From assembly GCF_003075455.1 (NCBI RefSeq), contig NZ_QDAE01000016.1, positions 1-64,000 of the forward strand: a stretch of 64,000 bases of DNA, in the 5' to 3' direction. A model generated the notes under the pieces. The model ran no database searches and was not told the DNA's origin. It saw only the letters and a list, made by a program, of their open reading frames with translations. The translations under genes were made by a program, and so were the position numbers. This DNA comes from Arthrobacter sp. Bz4 (GTDB lineage: Bacteria > Actinomycetota > Actinomycetes > Actinomycetales > Micrococcaceae). This document shows positions 52,144 to 60,646 of the stretch, one piece after another. Numbering within the stretch: the stretch's first letter is position 1; each line of letters starts with the position of its first letter.

Positions 52144-52221
52144 ACACTGATCCTGTTGGCCGGGCTCAAGGCTCAACGTAAACTTAGTGAACTTTTTCAC
52201 AAAGTCCGGTACCATCGAGGC

Positions 52222-53658
52222 ATGGCACTGAATCAACAGTTCTCCGATCGTCCGCGCATTCTTGTAGTCGGTGGCGGCTACGTAGGTCTCTATGTGGCCC
52301 ACAAGTTACAGAAGAAGATCAGGTCCCACGGTGGCATTGTCACCCTGGTGGACCCGCTGCCCTACATGACGTACCAGCCGTTCCTCCCCGAGGTGGCCGG
52401 TGGCAACATTGAAGCCCGCCACGCCGTGGTTTCGCACCGCACCCACCTCAAGCAGACCGAGTTGATCACCGGCAAGGTCACCGGCATCGACCACGCCCGC
52501 CGTACTGCAACGGTCGCCCCGGCTGACGGTAGCGAACCGTTCGAGTTGACCTACCGCGATGTCGTCGTCGCCGCCGGTTCCATCACCCGGACCTTCCCCA
52601 TTGAAGGGTTGAAGGACCAGGGGATCGGCCTGAAAACCATCGAGGAAGCTGTCGCACTGCGCAACCAGATGCTGGAGCGGATCGAGACCGGCTCGCTGAT
52701 GGCGGCCGGACCGGAGCGCGACCGTGCCCTGACCTTCGTTGTGGTTGGCGGCGGATTCGCCGGTATTGAAACCATCACCGAAATCGAGGACATGGCCCGG
52801 GCGGCGGTCAAGAAAAACGACCGGCTTGAGCACTCGGACCTGAGGTTCGTCCTGGTGGAAGCCATGGGACGGATCATGCCCGAGGTAACTGAATCCCAGG
52901 CGGTGTGGGTGGTCGCCCACCTAAGGTCCCGAGGAATTCAGGTCAAGTTGAATACCTCGTTGGCTAGCGCGGTGGATGGCCGGCTGAAGCTGATCAATAT
53001 GCCGGACAAGACTCCAGCGGACGAGTTCGAGACTGACACCCTGATCTGGACCGCTGGGGTTCAGGCCAACCCGATGGTCAGGTCCTCTGACTTCCCGATC
53101 GACGAGCGTGGCCGTATTCGCGCCAACGCCGAACTGCGGATCACCGGCGACGATGGACCCCTTGAGGGTGCCTGGACTGCAGGCGATGTCGCAGCAGTTC
53201 CGGACCTCACCGGCGGCGGCGTCGGCGGATTCTGCGTTCCCAACGCCCAACACGCTGTGCGCCAGGCCAAACTCCTCGCGAAGAACATCTACGCGCAGAA
53301 CAACGGCGTCGGCAGGGTCAAGGAATACAAGCACAAAAACCTCGGTGCTGTGGCTGGCTTCGGGCAGTACAAGGGTGTTGCCAACATCATGGGCTTCGGC
53401 ATGCGAGGACTCCCCGCGTGGTTGGCTCACCGTGGCTATCACGGGATGGCGATGCCGATGTTCGAGCGTAAGTTCCGAGTGGTCTTCAACTGGATTCTGA
53501 GCTTCGTCTTCGGACGGGACACCACCCAGCTGATGGATTTGCAGACGCCCAAGCGTCAGTTCCGTGAGGCCGCGACGCCGCCGCCGAAGAAGGATGAAGC
53601 TCCCTCCAGCGCCGGTGCAGCGAAAAGCGATTCCTATAGTGAGCCAGCCAGGAAATAG
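52222..53658 (+). CDS. ndh: type II NADH dehydrogenase (NDH-2)
   Basis: 478 residues. Single-subunit, non-proton-pumping NADH:menaquinone oxidoreductase attached to the inner membrane face. FAD site ILVVGGGYVGLYVAHKL at the N terminus; NADH site TFVVVGGGFAGIETITEI; quinone/FAD region GDVAAVPD and NAQHAVRQAKLLAKNI. The C terminus is amphipathic and then Lys/Pro-rich. The start is ATG 52222 with GAGG close upstream; the longer frame is unsupported. A strong terminator follows. Confidence 0.94.
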   Translation: MALNQQFSDRPRILVVGGGYVGLYVAHKLQKKIRSHGGIVTLVDPLPYMTYQPFLPEVAGGNIEARHAVVSHRTHLKQTELITGKVTGIDHARRTATVAPADGSEPFELTYRDVVVAAGSITRTFPIEGLKDQGIGLKTIEEAVALRNQMLERIETGSLMAAGPERDRALTFVVVGGGFAGIETITEIEDMARAAVKKNDRLEHSDLRFVLVEAMGRIMPEVTESQAVWVVAHLRSRGIQVKLNTSLASAVDGRLKLINMPDKTPADEFETDTLIWTAGVQANPMVRSSDFPIDERGRIRANAELRITGDDGPLEGAWTAGDVAAVPDLTGGGVGGFCVPNAQHAVRQAKLLAKNIYAQNNGVGRVKEYKHKNLGAVAGFGQYKGVANIMGFGMRGLPAWLAHRGYHGMAMPMFERKFRVVFNWILSFVFGRDTTQLMDLQTPKRQFREAATPPPKKDEAPSSAGAAKSDSYSEPARK

Positions 53659-53848: not shown

Positions 53849-53924
53849 GCCCCAGTAGCCCAATGGCAGAGGCACCAGACTTAAAATCTGTTCAGTGTCA
53901 GTTCGAGTCTGACCTGGGGCACCA
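53849..53924 (+). tRNA. tRNA with UAA anticodon (nominal tRNA-Leu), short variable loop
   Basis: Full cloverleaf with encoded CCA. The acceptor stem is perfect (53849-53855 with 53914-53920), with discriminator A (53921) and CCA (53922-53924). The T arm is perfect (53897-53901 with 53909-53913) around TTCGAGT. The anticodon loop CTTAAAA (53880-53886) puts TAA at 53882-53884. The variable loop is only 5 nt (53892-53896), so this is class I in shape, whereas bacterial tRNA-Leu is normally class II with a long variable arm. The first anticodon-stem pair (C53875 with T53891) is a mismatch. The Leu identity is by anticodon only. Confidence 0.85.
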
Positions 53925-54106: not shown

Positions 54107-55492
54107 ATGACTGCAACACGCAACTCCGTGCGGTTCGGCATTGGAGACAATGCACCTCGCGCGGCAAAGGTCGCTGCCTTGGGGCTGGGTATCGCGCTCT
54201 TTGCATCTGCCTGCGGCGGATCCACTCCTGAAGGAGACGGCGGCGAAACCTCAGCCGCCCCTGCCGCTGCAACCGGGCTCAGCTGCCCGGAGAGTCAGGG
54301 TGGCGAAGCGCCCGAGGCCAACCCGAAGGGGGACCCGTCCGCTGTTCCCGAGGCGACTACCACCTCCGACACACCACTGGTCCTGGGAACGCTGCTTCCA
54401 ACCACAGGTGCTCTAGCGTTCCTCGGTCCGCCCGAAATTGCTGGCACCAACCTCGCCGTTCAGGAGATCAACGAGGCTGGCGGCGTGCTCGGCCAGGACG
54501 TCGAGATCATCCACCGCGACTCGGGTGACACGACCACCGACATTGCCACCCAGTCTGTGACGGATCTGCTGTCTCAGGACGTCAGCGCCATCATCGGCGC
54601 CGCATCCTCAGGTGTTTCACGAACCGTGATCAACCAGATCACCGGAGCTGGCGTGATCCAGATTTCGCCTGCGAACACTGCTCCCGACTTCACCGACTGG
54701 GATGACAACGGACTGTACTGGCGCACCGCACCTTCAGATGTGCTGCAGGGCCGCGTGCTCGGCAACTACATCATGGAATGTGGCGCCCAGACCGTCGGCA
54801 TGGTCACCCTGAACGATGCTTACGGCACCGGGCTTCAGGGCTTCATCAGCGAGGCAGTTGAAGGAGCTGGTGGCCAGGTGGTCGCCAACGAGATGTTCAA
54901 CGAGGGTGACTCACAGTTCAGCAGCCAGGTTGATGCAGTCGTCGCTGCCGAGCCGGACGCCATCGTAGTCATCAGCTTCGACCAGGCAACCAGCATTGTG
55001 CCGCTCTTGACGGCCCAGGGCATTGATCCAAGCACCCTGTTCCTGGTGGACGGCAACACGGCCGACTACAGTGCAGATCTGGATCCAGGAACCATGGAAG
55101 GTGCTCAGGGAACCATTCCTGGCCCCTTCACCGGTGACGCCTTCCAGGAGGCATTGCTGGAAATCGATCCCGCCCTCACCAGCTGGAGCTATGCAGGTGA
55201 AAGCTACGACGCTGCGAATGTTGTCGCGTTGGCAGCTGAAGCAGCAGGTTCAACCGATGGTGCAGCAATTGCAGCCGAACTTCAGGGTGTCACCGGCGAA
55301 GGCGAGAAGTGCTACGACTTCGCGGCTTGCGTGACCCTTCTGCGCGACGGCGAAGACATCGACTATGACGGTATCTCCGGCCCGATCACCTTTGACGAAA
55401 ACGGTGACCCAACCGAAGCCTTCATCGGGATCTATGCATTCGACGGCGACAACGTCCCGCAGCCGAGCCGTTCCGAAACCGGACAGCTCTAA
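54107..55492 (+). CDS. branched-chain amino-acid-type ABC importer binding lipoprotein (LivJ-like)
   Basis: 461 residues. The signal peptide has a lipobox at Cys36 (FASAC). A Ser/Ala/Pro linker of about 55 residues carries an extra Cys, then a type I periplasmic-binding fold: LVLGTLLPTTGALAFLGPPEIAGTNLAV (start of the domain), ASSGVSRTV, MVTLNDAYGTGLQG and SWSYAGESYDAANVVALAA. It probably serves the LivHMGF-like genes at 56144-60367, which lie on the opposite strand facing it. The substrate could also be another amino acid or amide. Confidence 0.88.
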   Translation: MTATRNSVRFGIGDNAPRAAKVAALGLGIALFASACGGSTPEGDGGETSAAPAAATGLSCPESQGGEAPEANPKGDPSAVPEATTTSDTPLVLGTLLPTTGALAFLGPPEIAGTNLAVQEINEAGGVLGQDVEIIHRDSGDTTTDIATQSVTDLLSQDVSAIIGAASSGVSRTVINQITGAGVIQISPANTAPDFTDWDDNGLYWRTAPSDVLQGRVLGNYIMECGAQTVGMVTLNDAYGTGLQGFISEAVEGAGGQVVANEMFNEGDSQFSSQVDAVVAAEPDAIVVISFDQATSIVPLLTAQGIDPSTLFLVDGNTADYSADLDPGTMEGAQGTIPGPFTGDAFQEALLEIDPALTSWSYAGESYDAANVVALAAEAAGSTDGAAIAAELQGVTGEGEKCYDFAACVTLLRDGEDIDYDGISGPITFDENGDPTEAFIGIYAFDGDNVPQPSRSETGQL

Positions 55493-56143: not shown

Positions 56144-56884
56144 CTAAGCCGTGTCGGCGAGGGTGCCCAGGTACAACTGGATCACCTTCGGATCCTTCAT
56201 CAGCTCGCGGCCCGTACCCGTGTACGCGTCCTTCCCCTGATCGAGCACATACGCCCGGTCACAGATCTGGAGACACCGGCGGGCGTTCTGCTCGACCATG
56301 ATCACCGAGACTCCCGCCCGGTTGATCTCATGTACCCGTAGGAACGTCTCATCCTGTTTCACGGGTGAGAGACCGGCTGAGGGCTCATCGAGCAGGAGTA
56401 CTGCCGGGTCCATCATGAGCGCCCGTCCCATCGCCACCATCTGGCGTTCGCCGCCCGAGAGCGACCCGGCCCGCTGTGCCCGACGCTTCCCCAGTTCGGG
56501 GAACAAGTCAGCGACGAAGTCGAACCGCTTCTTGAAGTCCTTCGGCCGCTGGTACATACCCATTTCGAGGTTTTCCTCGATGGTCAGCGAGGCGAACACG
56601 TTGTTGTTCTGTGGGACGAACCCGACCCCCTGGCTAACCAGTTTGTTGGCCTTGAGCCCGGTGATGTCTTTGTCCCTGACCACCACAGACCCGGAATGTA
56701 CCTTCACCAACCCAAACATGGCCTTGAGCAGCGTGGACTTACCAGCGCCGTTGGGGCCGATGATGCCGATCAGCTCACCCGACCGTGCCTCAATACTGCA
56801 GCCGTTGAGGATGTTGACGCCCGGCAGGTAGCCAGCCACCAGGTCGGTGACCTTGACCACCGATGTGCTGTTGTCCTCGCTCAT
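56144..56884 (-). CDS. livF: branched-chain amino-acid ABC importer ATPase (LivF-like)
   Basis: 246 residues, one ABC domain: GPNGAGKST, the signature LSGGERQMVAMGRAL, VLLLDEPSAGLSP and the switch His position reading VIMVEQNARRCL, where LivF proteins have Gln as here. The length and DEPSAGL wording match LivF. The ATG overlaps the livG stop by 4 nt. Last gene of the operon, followed by a terminator. Confidence 0.92.
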   Translation of the reverse strand: MSEDNSTSVVKVTDLVAGYLPGVNILNGCSIEARSGELIGIIGPNGAGKSTLLKAMFGLVKVHSGSVVVRDKDITGLKANKLVSQGVGFVPQNNNVFASLTIEENLEMGMYQRPKDFKKRFDFVADLFPELGKRRAQRAGSLSGGERQMVAMGRALMMDPAVLLLDEPSAGLSPVKQDETFLRVHEINRAGVSVIMVEQNARRCLQICDRAYVLDQGKDAYTGTGRELMKDPKVIQLYLGTLADTA

Positions 56885-58026
56885 GGTCGGGTCTCCTTGC
56901 TGTCCGGTGCGGTATCCGCCGTTGTGGCGGGACCAGTCTGGCCTGTGCGAGTGGTTTCGACTGGCGTGCCGTCCAATTGGGTGCCTCCGGGGTGGGCCAG
57001 GATGCCGGCGTCGGCGGTGCCGACGACGGACTCCTCGTCCTGGGCGAGCTCAACTTCAAGCATCTCGACGCCCTTTGAGTCGCCGAGGTCGACGTCGTGA
57101 TGCGCGCCAAGGTAGGCATCGATCACGGCCTTATCCTTCATCACTATCTCGGGCGGCCCTTCGGCGACGATCCTGCCCTCGGCCATCACCACCACCCAAT
57201 CCGCGATGTGACGGACCATGTGCATGTCGTGCTCGACGAACAGCACCGTCATGCCCTCGGCCTTGAGGTTCTTGATGTGGTCCAGCAGGGACTGGGTGAG
57301 TGCTGGGTTAACTCCAGCCATCGGCTCATCGAGCATGACGAGAACCGGCTTGACCATCAGTGCCCGGGCCATTTCGAGCAGCTTACGCTGGCCTCCCGAC
57401 AGTGACGCCGCGTAGTCGTCCTTCTTCGCATCCAGTTTGAACTTGGCGAGGAGCACGTCTGCCTGCTCGGTGATTTCCTTCTCCCGCTTACCCCATAGCC
57501 CCTTGAACAGGGCCCGAGCGAGGCTCTCACCGGGTTGTGCAGTGGCGCCCAGACGCATGTTCTCCATGACGGTCAACTTGCCCATCACCTTGGTGAGCTG
57601 GAAGGTACGCACCATCCCCATCCGGGCCACCTTGTAGGACGGCACCCCGGCGATGTCACGGTCGTCGAAACGCCACTGCCCGCTGTTAGGGGTGTCGAAG
57701 CCGGTCAACAGGTTGAAGAGTGTGGTCTTGCCAGCACCATTGGGCCCGATCAGCGCAGTGATTTTGTTGCGGGGGACCTCAAGATACTCGACGTCGACGG
57801 CGTTCATCCCACCGAATTGGCGGGTCACCTTCTCCGCGACCAGGATGGGGTCCCGTTTTTTGCAGCCTGGACCGGTCTGCCCGGTGGTGATGTCGCGGGA
57901 ATCGGTCATGTAGTCCACCGGGGTTGAGCCGGCAGGCGCTGACTCCACGGCTCCGGGGGTGGCCGCACTGTGTTTGGGTGGACGCCCGTCCCCGGTGGTC
58001 GGCTGCGTCTCTAGTGGTTCGGTCAT
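56881..58026 (-). CDS. livG: branched-chain amino-acid ABC importer ATPase (LivG-like) with N- and C-terminal extensions
   Basis: 381 residues against about 255 for E. coli LivG. The ABC core (about 60-320) has GPNGAGKTT, LSGGQRKLLEMARAL, VLMLDEPMAGVNP and LFVEHDMHMV. An extra 60 residues at the N terminus (Pro/Thr/Gly-rich) and about 60 acidic then Thr-rich residues at the C terminus flank it. Both look disordered. The ATG at 58026 overlaps the livM stop; a later internal start would remove the N-terminal extension and cannot be excluded. Confidence 0.9.
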   Translation of the reverse strand: MTEPLETQPTTGDGRPPKHSAATPGAVESAPAGSTPVDYMTDSRDITTGQTGPGCKKRDPILVAEKVTRQFGGMNAVDVEYLEVPRNKITALIGPNGAGKTTLFNLLTGFDTPNSGQWRFDDRDIAGVPSYKVARMGMVRTFQLTKVMGKLTVMENMRLGATAQPGESLARALFKGLWGKREKEITEQADVLLAKFKLDAKKDDYAASLSGGQRKLLEMARALMVKPVLVMLDEPMAGVNPALTQSLLDHIKNLKAEGMTVLFVEHDMHMVRHIADWVVVMAEGRIVAEGPPEIVMKDKAVIDAYLGAHHDVDLGDSKGVEMLEVELAQDEESVVGTADAGILAHPGGTQLDGTPVETTRTGQTGPATTADTAPDSKETRP

Positions 58027-59003
58027 GCGAACGCCAGCTCCTTCTTGTTACCCAGGACGCCCTGGGGTCTGAACACCATTAGCAGCATCAACGCGACGCC
58101 AACGAGGATGTAGCGCAATTGACCTGCCTGCACGTTGGACAGGAAGGTGATGGCACCGATTTCAATTGCACCGTAGAGCAGCCCCTGGGTCAGGGACAGC
58201 ACCACCCAGAAGATCATGGCCCCGATCACCGGTCCAAGAACGGTGGCCATGCCACCGAGCAGGAGACAGGTGTACAGGAAGAACGTTAGCTCCGTGGCAT
58301 AGTTGGCAGGCTGTACCGCGCCGCGGGGGAGGGTGAAGATCATGCCCGCCAGGGAACCGAGGAGGCCACCGATAACCAGCGCCTGCATCTTGTACGCGTA
58401 CACGTTCTTGCCCAGGGCACGAACAGCGTTCTCGTCCTCCCTGATCCCCTTGAGCACACGGCCCCAGGGGCTGCGCATGAGCAACCAGACGGTCAGGCAG
58501 GCGAGGGCCACAATGGTCCAGCCCACGATTCTGATCCACAGGTCCCGCTCATTCATTGCGATGGGACCCACATTGTAGGATCCCGGGGCCAACGGATTTA
58601 GCGCGAAAAAGCCATTCTCGAAGTTGGCGAGACCGTTGGCTGAGCCCGTCACCTCGGTCAGCCCGTTGGTGGTCACGATGTACCTGACGATTTCCGCTGC
58701 GGCGATAGTGACGATCGCGAGATAGTCGGCTCGTAGGCGCAGGGTGGGAATGCCCAGGATGAGGGCGAAAAGCACGGAGGCCGTCAACGCCACCAGGACG
58801 GCGACTGGCAGGGGAGCGTCGAAAGTCAGGGTTGAAATTGCGTAGCCGTAGGCACCCACGGCCATGAAACCGGCCTGGCCGAAGTTCAGCAGTCCTGAAT
58901 AGCCAAAGTGCACGGCGAGACCGAGGGCGGCCAGAGCATAAGCGGCGGTGGTGGGGCTGATCATTTCGCCGAAGGCGAGTGCAAGAATATTTCCGAAATC
59001 CAT
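58023..59003 (-). CDS. livM: branched-chain amino-acid ABC importer permease (LivM-like)
   Basis: 326 residues with about eight to nine hydrophobic segments. Landmarks are GYSGLLNFGQAGFMAVGAYGYA, TLRLRADYLAIVTIAAAEIVRY, the RSPWGRVLKGIREDENAVRALGKN EAA-type loop that contacts the ATPase, and a C-terminal LLMVFRPQGVLG. The start is ATG 59003, 11 bp after the livH stop. Forms the channel with LivH. Confidence 0.92.
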   Translation of the reverse strand: MDFGNILALAFGEMISPTTAAYALAALGLAVHFGYSGLLNFGQAGFMAVGAYGYAISTLTFDAPLPVAVLVALTASVLFALILGIPTLRLRADYLAIVTIAAAEIVRYIVTTNGLTEVTGSANGLANFENGFFALNPLAPGSYNVGPIAMNERDLWIRIVGWTIVALACLTVWLLMRSPWGRVLKGIREDENAVRALGKNVYAYKMQALVIGGLLGSLAGMIFTLPRGAVQPANYATELTFFLYTCLLLGGMATVLGPVIGAMIFWVVLSLTQGLLYGAIEIGAITFLSNVQAGQLRYILVGVALMLLMVFRPQGVLGNKKELAFA

Positions 59004-59014
59004 GATGTGAGCCC

Positions 59015-60367
59015 CTAACCGACGCGCTCTTTGCGGCCGAGGATACCCTGCGGCCGGAACAGAAGAACCAGAATCATGATCAGAAGCGCTCCCACATACT
59101 TAAGGTCGGCTTCCAGCCAGATGGTCGAGATTTCCACGAACAGTCCTACGATGATCGACCCGATGAGGGCACCGAACACGGTGCCCAGTCCACCGAGGAC
59201 GACGCCAGCGAAGATGAGCAGCAGGATCTGCTGACCCATGTTGAAGGACACGCCCGGACGGTAGTACGCCCAGAGGATTCCGCCGAGGGCTGCCAGCGCC
59301 CCGCCGACCATCCAGACAATCCGGATGACCCGGTCCACATCGATACCTGAAGCGGCAGCGAGGGCTGGGTTGTCCGACACCGCGCGGGTGGCTTTGCCGA
59401 GGCGGGTGCGCAGGAGGAGGAACCCAACCAACAGGATGATCACCAGGGAAATCAGCAACGAATTGAGGTTGTTCTGTGAAATGGAGACCGGTCCGAAGTC
59501 CAGCCGAGCGCTCTGGGCGCCAGGCAACTGCTGCGTGGCACCACCGAAATTGAACTGAATGATGTACCGGAGCGCCAGGGCGAGCCCAATGCTGACGATC
59601 ATCATGGGAACCAGCCCGGTTCCGCGACGGCGCAGGGGCTTCCACAAACCAGCATCCTGGACCCACCCGAGGAGAGCACCAGCGACCACCGCCAACGGTA
59701 TTGCCACGAAGATGGGCAACCCCAATGCGGCGAATCCGAAGGCAACTACCGCGCCAAAGGTAACCATCTCGCCGTGGGCGAAGTTGGTGAGCCCGGTTGT
59801 ACCGAAAATCAACGACAGCCCGACGGCGCTCAGCGCGAGCAGCAGGCCGAAGCTGAGGCCGGCGAGGGAGCGTTCCGCGAGGGTGTCCCAGAAGCTGGTG
59901 GTGGTTGTGACGATCCCCTCGCCGAACAGAAACAGCGTGGTGACGTTGGATGTGCCAGCAAAGGTGACTGTGCGCGGATTGGCCTGGCCTTCAGCCAGGG
60001 CCGCACCCTCGGGGAGGGTGTCAACTTCGAGGGTTACCTCGTAGGCACCCTGCTCGGGTACCCCGACGGACCAGGACCCGTTGGCTGCCGAAGTAGTCTC
60101 ACCATCGAACCCGTTGCCCGATACCGAGATGGTGACGTCCGCGAGAGGGCCGTCGGCGTTCCGGAGAACACCACTGATCCGGTCAGTGAACTCCTGGGCA
60201 ACGATCTGCCCGGGGAGATGCGATGCGGCCAGTGTGCTGGGAGCTGTCGCGGGGGCCCCTGGGTGGTAGCCCTGGGCTGCGGGGGCGCTGAGCATGAGGA
60301 CGGCGATGAGGCCGGTCGCGAAAACCAGCAGCCTCCTGATCCACGCAGGCGTCGGTCGGGTTATCAA
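59015..60367 (-). CDS. livH: LivH-like permease fused to an exported Ig-like (carboxypeptidase-regulatory/Cna-B-like) domain
   Basis: 450 residues from TTG 60367 (GAGG 8 nt upstream). An N-terminal signal-like helix (about 12-32) is followed by an extracytoplasmic domain at about 62-147 whose strands read DRISGVLRNADGPLADVTIS and SAANGSWSVGVPEQGAYEV, a beta-sandwich of the carboxypeptidase-regulatory/Cna-B type. A LivH permease (about 165-450) follows with GTTGLTNFAHGEMVTFGA, RRRGTGLVPMMIVSIGLAL, the EAA-type RAVSDNPALAAASGID loop and a terminal LLFRPQGILGRKERVG. E. coli LivH is about 308 residues and lacks the extra domain. Confidence 0.87.
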   Translation of the reverse strand: MITRPTPAWIRRLLVFATGLIAVLMLSAPAAQGYHPGAPATAPSTLAASHLPGQIVAQEFTDRISGVLRNADGPLADVTISVSGNGFDGETTSAANGSWSVGVPEQGAYEVTLEVDTLPEGAALAEGQANPRTVTFAGTSNVTTLFLFGEGIVTTTTSFWDTLAERSLAGLSFGLLLALSAVGLSLIFGTTGLTNFAHGEMVTFGAVVAFGFAALGLPIFVAIPLAVVAGALLGWVQDAGLWKPLRRRGTGLVPMMIVSIGLALALRYIIQFNFGGATQQLPGAQSARLDFGPVSISQNNLNSLLISLVIILLVGFLLLRTRLGKATRAVSDNPALAAASGIDVDRVIRIVWMVGGALAALGGILWAYYRPGVSFNMGQQILLLIFAGVVLGGLGTVFGALIGSIIVGLFVEISTIWLEADLKYVGALLIMILVLLFRPQGILGRKERVG

Positions 60368-60423
60368 GTTATGAACCTCACTATGGGGTGCCCCACCGGC
60401 GATCCGGTGGAGTAAGGACGGCT

Positions 60424-60466
60424 TGTGGCATACGTCTGGTGCCACATGTCTTGTGACACATGTCAC
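60424..60466. promoter_or_regulatory. inverted and direct repeats upstream of the liv operon
   Basis: TGTGGCA (60424-60430) is the reverse complement of TGCCACA (60440-60446). Immediately after it GTGACACATGTCAC (60453-60466) is a 14-bp inverted repeat with a 2-nt centre. ACATGTC also occurs twice in direct orientation. They lie 57-100 bp upstream of the livH start, in the region divergent from the Bax-inhibitor gene, as expected for regulator sites. Confidence 0.45.
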
Positions 60467-60646
60467 CGAGTGTGAGTTCATGTTACCCGTGCCATGTTTC
60501 GACGGATACCCAAACGGCTACCGGCGGGTAGCGATTGGGTAACGACTGCTGGCGTCGCTGGCGCCGCAGGGAACAAAATGTCGGAAAAAGCGTTGACATT
60601 GATAAGGTTAAAATCACATTCATCCCCCATTGGAGGACAAGTTCAC

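Follow-up and report, generated by a model that had tools for sequence, protein, structure and literature searches.

Does a tRNA gene that reads the leucine codon UUA but has only a short variable loop still specify leucine? According to passages of one review (PMC9976931), tRNA-Leu has kept its long variable arm everywhere but in animal mitochondria. The gene in question lies in a stretch of 64,000 nucleotides of Arthrobacter sp. Bz4 (contig NZ_QDAE01000016.1, hereafter the window), where a UAA anticodon sits on a class I body. We conclude, with high confidence, that this gene encodes a functional class I tRNA-Leu(UAA) with a leucine-type core, that it is the sole UUA decoder found, that it is most likely charged by LeuRS, and that in one clade the gene most simply became class II again.

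The gene and its fold

ARAGORN called a tRNA at 53849-53924 on the forward strand with the anticodon TAA (53882-53884, positions 34-36), which reads UUA. Rfam RF00005 matched the same gene over 53849-53921 with 58.9 bits, against a gathering cut-off of 29 (E-value 3.4e-10 over 64 kb), and returned a full cloverleaf with an acceptor stem of 7 bp, a D stem of 3 bp plus an unpaired C13.A22, an anticodon stem of 5, a variable loop of 5 nt, a T stem of 5, the discriminator A73 (53921) and an encoded CCA (53922-53924). The variable loop, TCAGT (positions 44-48, 53892-53896), stands in place of the class II arm and ends on U48; its 5 nt fall short of the 10 nt or more by which a class II tRNA is recognised. 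Positions 8-25 (53856-53873) form a core of the tRNA-Leu type, with U8, A14, A15, G18G19, A20a, G21 and the unpaired C13.A22. The anticodon stem contains one mismatch, C27.U43. Among the class I UAA tRNAs of the family this position was C.U in 4 of 37 distinct sequences and a standard pair in 31. At the level of its sequence, the short-armed gene was confirmed as a genuine tRNA. The initial annotation had its coordinates, its 5-nt loop and the C-U first pair of the anticodon stem right, and it had correctly described a class I UAA tRNA that decodes UUA in a GC-rich genome.

The gene is flanked by two others on the same strand. Upstream, at 52156-53658, is a conserved neighbour with a provisional start codon, whose product we take, by inspection, to be an NADH-dehydrogenase-like flavoprotein. 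Downstream, at 54107-55492, is what by inspection appears to be the substrate-binding protein of an ABC transporter of the branched-chain amino-acid type; judged in the same way, this gene and the stretch at 56144-60481 resemble an ABC transporter for branched-chain amino acids. Upstream of the tRNA, a scan that is weak for actinobacteria detected no sigma-70-like promoter, and the terminator part of the same scan around the gene gave nothing useful.

UUA decoding in the genome

The Arthrobacter genome that we surveyed is a 3.41 Mb draft in 80 contigs, estimated at 99.94% complete. It contained 46 RF00005 matches, all of which were typed by ARAGORN. The other leucine tRNAs carry the anticodons CAA, UAG, CAG and GAG, and all are class II with variable arms of 13-15 nt. 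A CAA tRNA is expected to read UUG only. Since none of these four has a UAA anticodon, the class I gene is the only UUA reader found in the draft genome. The initial annotation had proposed looking for a second, class II tRNA-Leu(UAA), and none was found among the 46 typed matches of the 80-contig draft. One LeuRS gene was found, an 849-aa frame scoring 963.6 bits, with the remaining matches below the family cut-off.

UUA accounted for 9 of 18,662 codons in the window by a crude gene call, and some of the nine probably lie upstream of true starts. The codon is rare, as had been noted from the sequence. With CUA at 2.52 per 1000 and a UUG/CUG ratio of 0.18, about 0.46 UUA per 1000 would be expected against 0.48 observed, so its scarcity is about what composition predicts.

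For genomes that carry the class I gene, the meaning of UUA was read from protein alignments in which UUA positions had been masked as X; nearly all of the 42 sites came from relatives and few from the host genome. Leucine was the majority residue at 28 of these 42 sites (30 loci), compared with 87 of 120 CUA sites (Fisher p 0.55) and 558 of 724 UUG sites (p 0.13). The remaining 14 UUA sites were divided among I (3), S (3), V (2), M (2), A (2), Q (1) and G (1). Six loci were dropped from the UUA queries as non-actinobacterial or unplaced (L271, L274, L296, L297, L310 and L312), and five more non-actinobacterial class I loci stayed among them (L343, L346, L361, L368 and L373). A version with looser filters gave a leucine majority at 33 of 55 UUA sites and 119 of 169 CUA sites. 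In an AUA control under these looser filters, V was the majority residue at 86 of 207 sites and I at 70; this control was left out of the conclusions. Because UUA aligned with leucine about as often as CUA did, UUA behaves as a leucine codon in class I genomes. Reassignment of UUA was considered and rejected, given that the leucine share of UUA sites was like that of CUA.

Leucine identity elements

Passages of PMC9976931 name A73, A15-U48, G18G19 and A20a as determinants for E. coli LeuRS and U8:A14 for the A. aeolicus enzyme. They describe the anticodon and the long arm as both not crucial, the long arm being dispensable in E. coli, and they also list variable-arm base number among features predicted to be important for class II tRNAs. 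The UAA tRNA carries the LeuRS determinants, a set defined on the E. coli and A. aeolicus enzymes and applied here to an actinobacterial host. Among the 45 distinct tRNAs of the genome, A73, U8, A14, A15, U48 and A20a occurred together in exactly five, namely the four class II tRNA-Leu and the class I UAA tRNA. Two further features pointed to the same group less exclusively: G21 was found in tRNA-Leu, including the class I UAA tRNA, and elsewhere only in the Cys tRNA, while the unpaired 13.22 was found in tRNA-Leu, again including the class I UAA tRNA, and was shared by the Cys and Tyr tRNAs and by some of the Ser tRNAs.

All six elements were present in 36 of 37 distinct class I sequences within the family and in 170 of 173 overall, a wider conservation that is partly selection because A14, A15, A20a, G21 and A22 belonged to the search pattern for the order, phylum and named-record loci. 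A73, U8 and U48 were never part of that pattern, and the loci found by BLAST or by covariance model were pattern-free, the model itself having been built from the host genus. The exceptions were L114, whose failure apparently reflects a one-base register shift by ARAGORN, L241 (C48) and L296 (Chloroflexaceae, without A20a). As a control, the same six elements were scored on class II tRNA-Leu(UAA) and were complete in only 35 of 41 distinct sequences, so the set is typical of tRNA-Leu(UAA) and not perfect for it; one of the six failures had G73 and five were without the GG of the D loop. The case with G73, the sole one among the 41, is L219 (1453-1537) in genome G052. Every one of the 173 distinct class I sequences has A73, and the initial annotation was right that this discriminator fits leucine. 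At the same end of the molecule, a G1.U72 wobble was seen in 50 of the 173 (e.g. L048-L053).

Distribution of the class I form

ARAGORN read a TAA anticodon at all 30 loci fetched from the genus (own gene included). In the family, a covariance model gave one match of at least 73 bits in 134 of 149 genomes, representing 29 of 32 genera. Typing covered 50 of the 134, made up of one locus from each of 20 genera and the 30 best matches, and TAA was read in all 50 (own gene included). The 15 family genomes that were without a class I match comprised seven of genus g44, seven of g45, and G085, which is 82% complete and showed neither a class I nor a class II tRNA-Leu(UAA) by model or pattern.

Stem cells formed standard pairs in 3437 of 3460 cases over the 173 distinct class I sequences and in 731 of 740 over the 37 family sequences, with several pair types at many stem positions. 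Because pairing was kept at this level with varied pair types, the cloverleaf is not a chance fold and, judging from the alignment, is conserved with compensatory changes. The variable loop measured 5 nt in 165 of the 173 sequences and 6 nt in 8.

Beyond the family, 206 of 248 order genomes, spread over 78 of 85 genera, carried the class I pattern and 8 the class II pattern, with no overlap; typing covered 30 of the 206 class I genomes and 7 order class II loci beyond the 14 of the family described below. At the level of the phylum, 32 of 217 genomes matched the class I pattern and 101 the class II pattern. One genome, G552, matched both, and ARAGORN called no tRNA at its class I locus (L239). 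The 32 phylum class I genomes supplied 30 loci, 28 of which were typed; L236 and L239 gave no tRNA call, and L245 is truncated. L236 is one of two pattern matches in G565, the second lying outside the fetched set. From the 101 class II genomes 30 loci were fetched, of which 29 were typed, as the tallies of 22 and then 51 class II loci imply. Neither pattern, each of which can miss forms, was found in 34 of 248 order genomes (12 of 12 in family f14, 15 of 18 in f4 and 7 others) or in 85 of 217 phylum genomes. G085, f14 and most f4 genomes may have other UAA forms or no UUA-specific tRNA.

Among named records, at least 119 stretches matched; among the matches listed, 104 were typed as class I and 15 were not. 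The 104 class I loci among these listed matches divided into 93 from Actinomycetota, 10 from other phyla and 1 unplaced. Genera represented among the matches listed were Gordonia, Nocardia, Rhodococcus, Mycobacterium, Corynebacterium, Amycolatopsis, Saccharopolyspora and Streptosporangium, and Acidimicrobiia, Mycobacteriales, Pseudonocardiales and Microbacterium also carry the class I form in this set. Locus counts throughout take some genomes in more than once (e.g. L045, L084 and L231). Outside Actinomycetota, class I UAA tRNAs that share the D-arm pattern were also observed in at least ten records (L271, L274, L296, L297, L312, L343, L346, L361, L368 and L373), which belong to Planctomycetota, Rokuibacteriota, Chloroflexota, Myxococcota, Cyanobacteriota, Armatimonadota, Acidobacteriota and Pseudomonadota. 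These may be additional, mobile or misbinned copies.

Probable change of class beside a conserved neighbour

A class II pattern that required AGAC in the D loop matched 0 of 245 genomes. The class II genes of g44 and g45 carry ATAC at this place, and a relaxed pattern replaced the first. The relaxed pattern was found in 14 of 149 family genomes, seven of g44 and seven of g45, and all 14 were typed as class II UAA. These 14 genomes were all without a class I match, so that the two forms are mutually exclusive within the family. In each of the families f3, f4, f34, f47 and f63 some genomes showed one state and some the other, a pattern suggesting that the class has changed more than once; both states were tRNA-typed only in f3, and in f4, f34, f47 and f63 one of the two was assigned from the pattern alone. 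Seven class II loci of the phylum set, from family f21, have bldA-like sequences and presumably come from Streptomyces.

The NADH-dehydrogenase-like neighbour provided a fixed point for this comparison. Of 264 UAA-tRNA loci, 140 had its homologue in the fetched stretch, the 14 class II loci from g44 and g45 all among them; a homologue of the substrate-binding protein was present at 52 of the 264, mostly within the genus. The initial annotation had advised comparing Micrococcaceae homologues at the locus, and in the family the tRNA gene indeed lies beside this same NADH-dehydrogenase-like gene. We built a tree of the neighbour protein from 85 of the 140 homologues, keeping alignments of at least 400 aa, dropping identical rows and thinning genus g1. 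In this tree, which covers one protein and not the species and was midpoint-rooted for drawing, the 14 class II rows grouped in a single clade (support 100/96) that sits within class I genera. That clade adjoins two class I genomes, L119 and L121 (100/98), and the rows from other families were all class I.

The tRNA genes themselves gave a complementary picture. The class II gene L182 and the class I gene L119, which is identical to L121, share their first 8 nt and their last 27 nt (to A73) without a difference. Set against the nearest class I gene of the family, the nine distinct g44/g45 class II sequences showed 0-1 differences in the acceptor, none in the T arm and 6-9 in the D arm; set against the nearest other class II gene, they showed 3-4, 0 and 1-3, respectively. 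The class II genes of g44 and g45 thus look chimaeric by sequence comparison. Most simply, class I would be ancestral in the family and class II would have been regained in place in g44 and g45. The section from the D arm to the variable arm may have been replaced by class II sequence through recombination; stepwise mutation is also possible.

Discussion

In the mechanism that we favour, a single ordinary LeuRS would charge the class I UAA tRNA with leucine. Recognition would run through A73 and the D-arm/variable-loop core, that is U8:A14, A15-U48, G18G19 and A20a, none of which should need the long arm. In the one clade of two genera, the simplest course would be an exchange of the D and variable arms that returned the gene to class II. 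Transcription, charging by LeuRS, use on the ribosome and the direction of the class change are all steps that we infer.

Under a different account, the class I body would be the substrate of another synthetase, with UUA read as something other than leucine. The class I shape is compatible with this, and A73 is also found in Lys, Ile, Val and other tRNAs of the genome. We nevertheless judge such recoding or mischarging very unlikely, since the leucine-type core is unique to tRNA-Leu among the host's own tRNAs, UUA aligns as leucine much like CUA, and an ordinary class II tRNA-Leu(UAA) replaces the class I gene beside the same neighbour in g44 and g45. It is harder still to credit, to the point of being extremely improbable, that the gene is a degenerate copy, one that is not transcribed, or a mobile (phage) tRNA, and that UUA is really read by a gene at another place. 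Phages do carry related short-looped UAA tRNAs, and the anticodon stem has its one mismatch; against this stand the lack of a second UAA tRNA among the 46 typed, the conservation of the neighbour gene and of the stems, and the occurrence of the class I pattern in 206 of 248 order genomes.

A specialised or regulatory decoder after the manner of bldA, limiting the expression of a set of UUA-containing genes, is unlikely, though less so than either of these. The codon is rare and this tRNA is its only reader found, as such a role would have it. Its scarcity, however, matches composition, and passages of PMC4255298 note that outside Streptomycineae bldA may lack its developmental role. A role of this kind does not conflict with a normal tRNA-Leu identity.

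The reading as a LeuRS-charged class I tRNA-Leu leaves the initial annotation partly supported. Its suggestion of a mischarged or orphan molecule found no support, and neither did degenerate status: the gene is the sole UUA reader found, it shows compensatory changes, and it has the leucine core determinants. Its premise that LeuRS leans on class II shape runs against what the passages of PMC9976931 report for E. coli, though variable-arm base number is listed there as a predicted feature. The surprise is structural and evolutionary, not a new code.

More broadly, it is likely that across much of Actinomycetota the UUA reader is a class I tRNA-Leu, that its class flips beside a fixed neighbour while the meaning of the codon stays constant, and that in one Micrococcaceae clade the arm returned in place, apparently by recombination of the D and variable arms that kept the acceptor and T arms. 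If so, tRNA class is no fixed property of leucine identity in bacteria, and the LeuRS of those lineages must accept both shapes. The gene would represent a conserved bacterial exception to the long-armed tRNA-Leu, with relatives in Mycobacterium, Nocardia, Rhodococcus, Gordonia and Microbacterium. The apparent in-place reversal in g44 and g45 offers two closely similar genes and with them a natural experiment on the need of LeuRS for the arm. Annotation of isotype from shape could mislabel class I tRNA-Leu(UAA), which would also look different to toxins or engineered systems that detect the variable arm.

Short-looped leucine tRNAs are also found in phages. The class I UAA tRNA matched 196 phage records at an E-value of 1e-3 or better, and in 127 of them the match spanned 80% or more of the query. 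Mycobacterium phages accounted for 91 of the records and Streptomyces phages for 56. The genes of four of the 196 were inspected. In three of them, Pseudomonas phage 16Q, Citrobacter phage Moogle and Salmonella phage Si3, the tRNA has the anticodon UAA, measures 78-79 nt including CCA and has a loop of 6-7 nt. The fourth, Mycobacterium phage BeanWater, carries a 76-nt Leu(CAG) with a 5-nt loop. In BeanWater (MF919494.1, 30329-30672, L415) three adjoining short tRNA-Leu genes are annotated as CAG, GAG and CAA (74-76 nt), which indicates that short tRNA-Leu bodies exist with several leucine anticodons. The short-looped UAA tRNAs in phages of E. coli relatives would fit a bacterial LeuRS that ignores the arm.

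In the open-access papers searched, we found no account of a chromosomal class I tRNA-Leu(UAA). Several known systems can be set beside it. Class II tRNA-Leu(UAA), including Streptomyces bldA, shares with the class I form the anticodon, U8, A14, A15, U48, the unpaired 13.22 and, in 40 of 41 distinct class II sequences, A73, and the g44/g45 class II genes further share its neighbour gene, acceptor and T arm. The two forms differ in the variable loop (5-6 nt in class I and 12-19 nt in class II), at position 13 (all 173 class I sequences have C13, all 41 class II sequences G13) and at position 9 (A9 in 158 of the 173 class I sequences, G9 in every one of the 41 class II sequences). From mycobacteria, passages of PMC6582537 describe a cluster-encoded tRNA-Leu(TAG) with a short variable loop as an extra copy beside the normal isoacceptor, and passages of PMC11541572 report a long variable loop in some M. 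tuberculosis tRNAs, especially Leu-2, Leu-3 and Leu-5. The short loop of the cluster tRNA is shared with ours, but the TAG gene is an extra copy, whereas here the gene is the sole one found for its codon.

In genus g19 (f3) we observed, beside the class II tRNA-Leu(UAA), a tRNA-Ile(UAU) 93-94 nt long, whose variable region holds about 20 additional bases (L219, 1578-1670; L221, 1271-1363; L222, 1373-1466; L223, 1593-1685). By eye, the additional bases could form a GUGC/GCAC hairpin and the core looks Ile-like (G15-C48). It recalls the nematode nev-tRNA-Ile(UAU).

The nematode nev-tRNAs of PMC4300185 resemble our case in that the class of variable arm is decoupled from decoding identity. The direction is opposite, since there a variable arm sits on Gly(CCC) and Ile(UAU) tRNAs, which are misacylated with leucine in vitro. 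Animal mitochondrial tRNA-Leu without the long arm has a short variable loop too, and the human one is recognised via A73 and A14 according to passages of PMC9976931. Unlike it, the tRNA described here is encoded by a bacterial chromosomal gene, folds into a well-paired cloverleaf and stands beside four class II leucine tRNAs.
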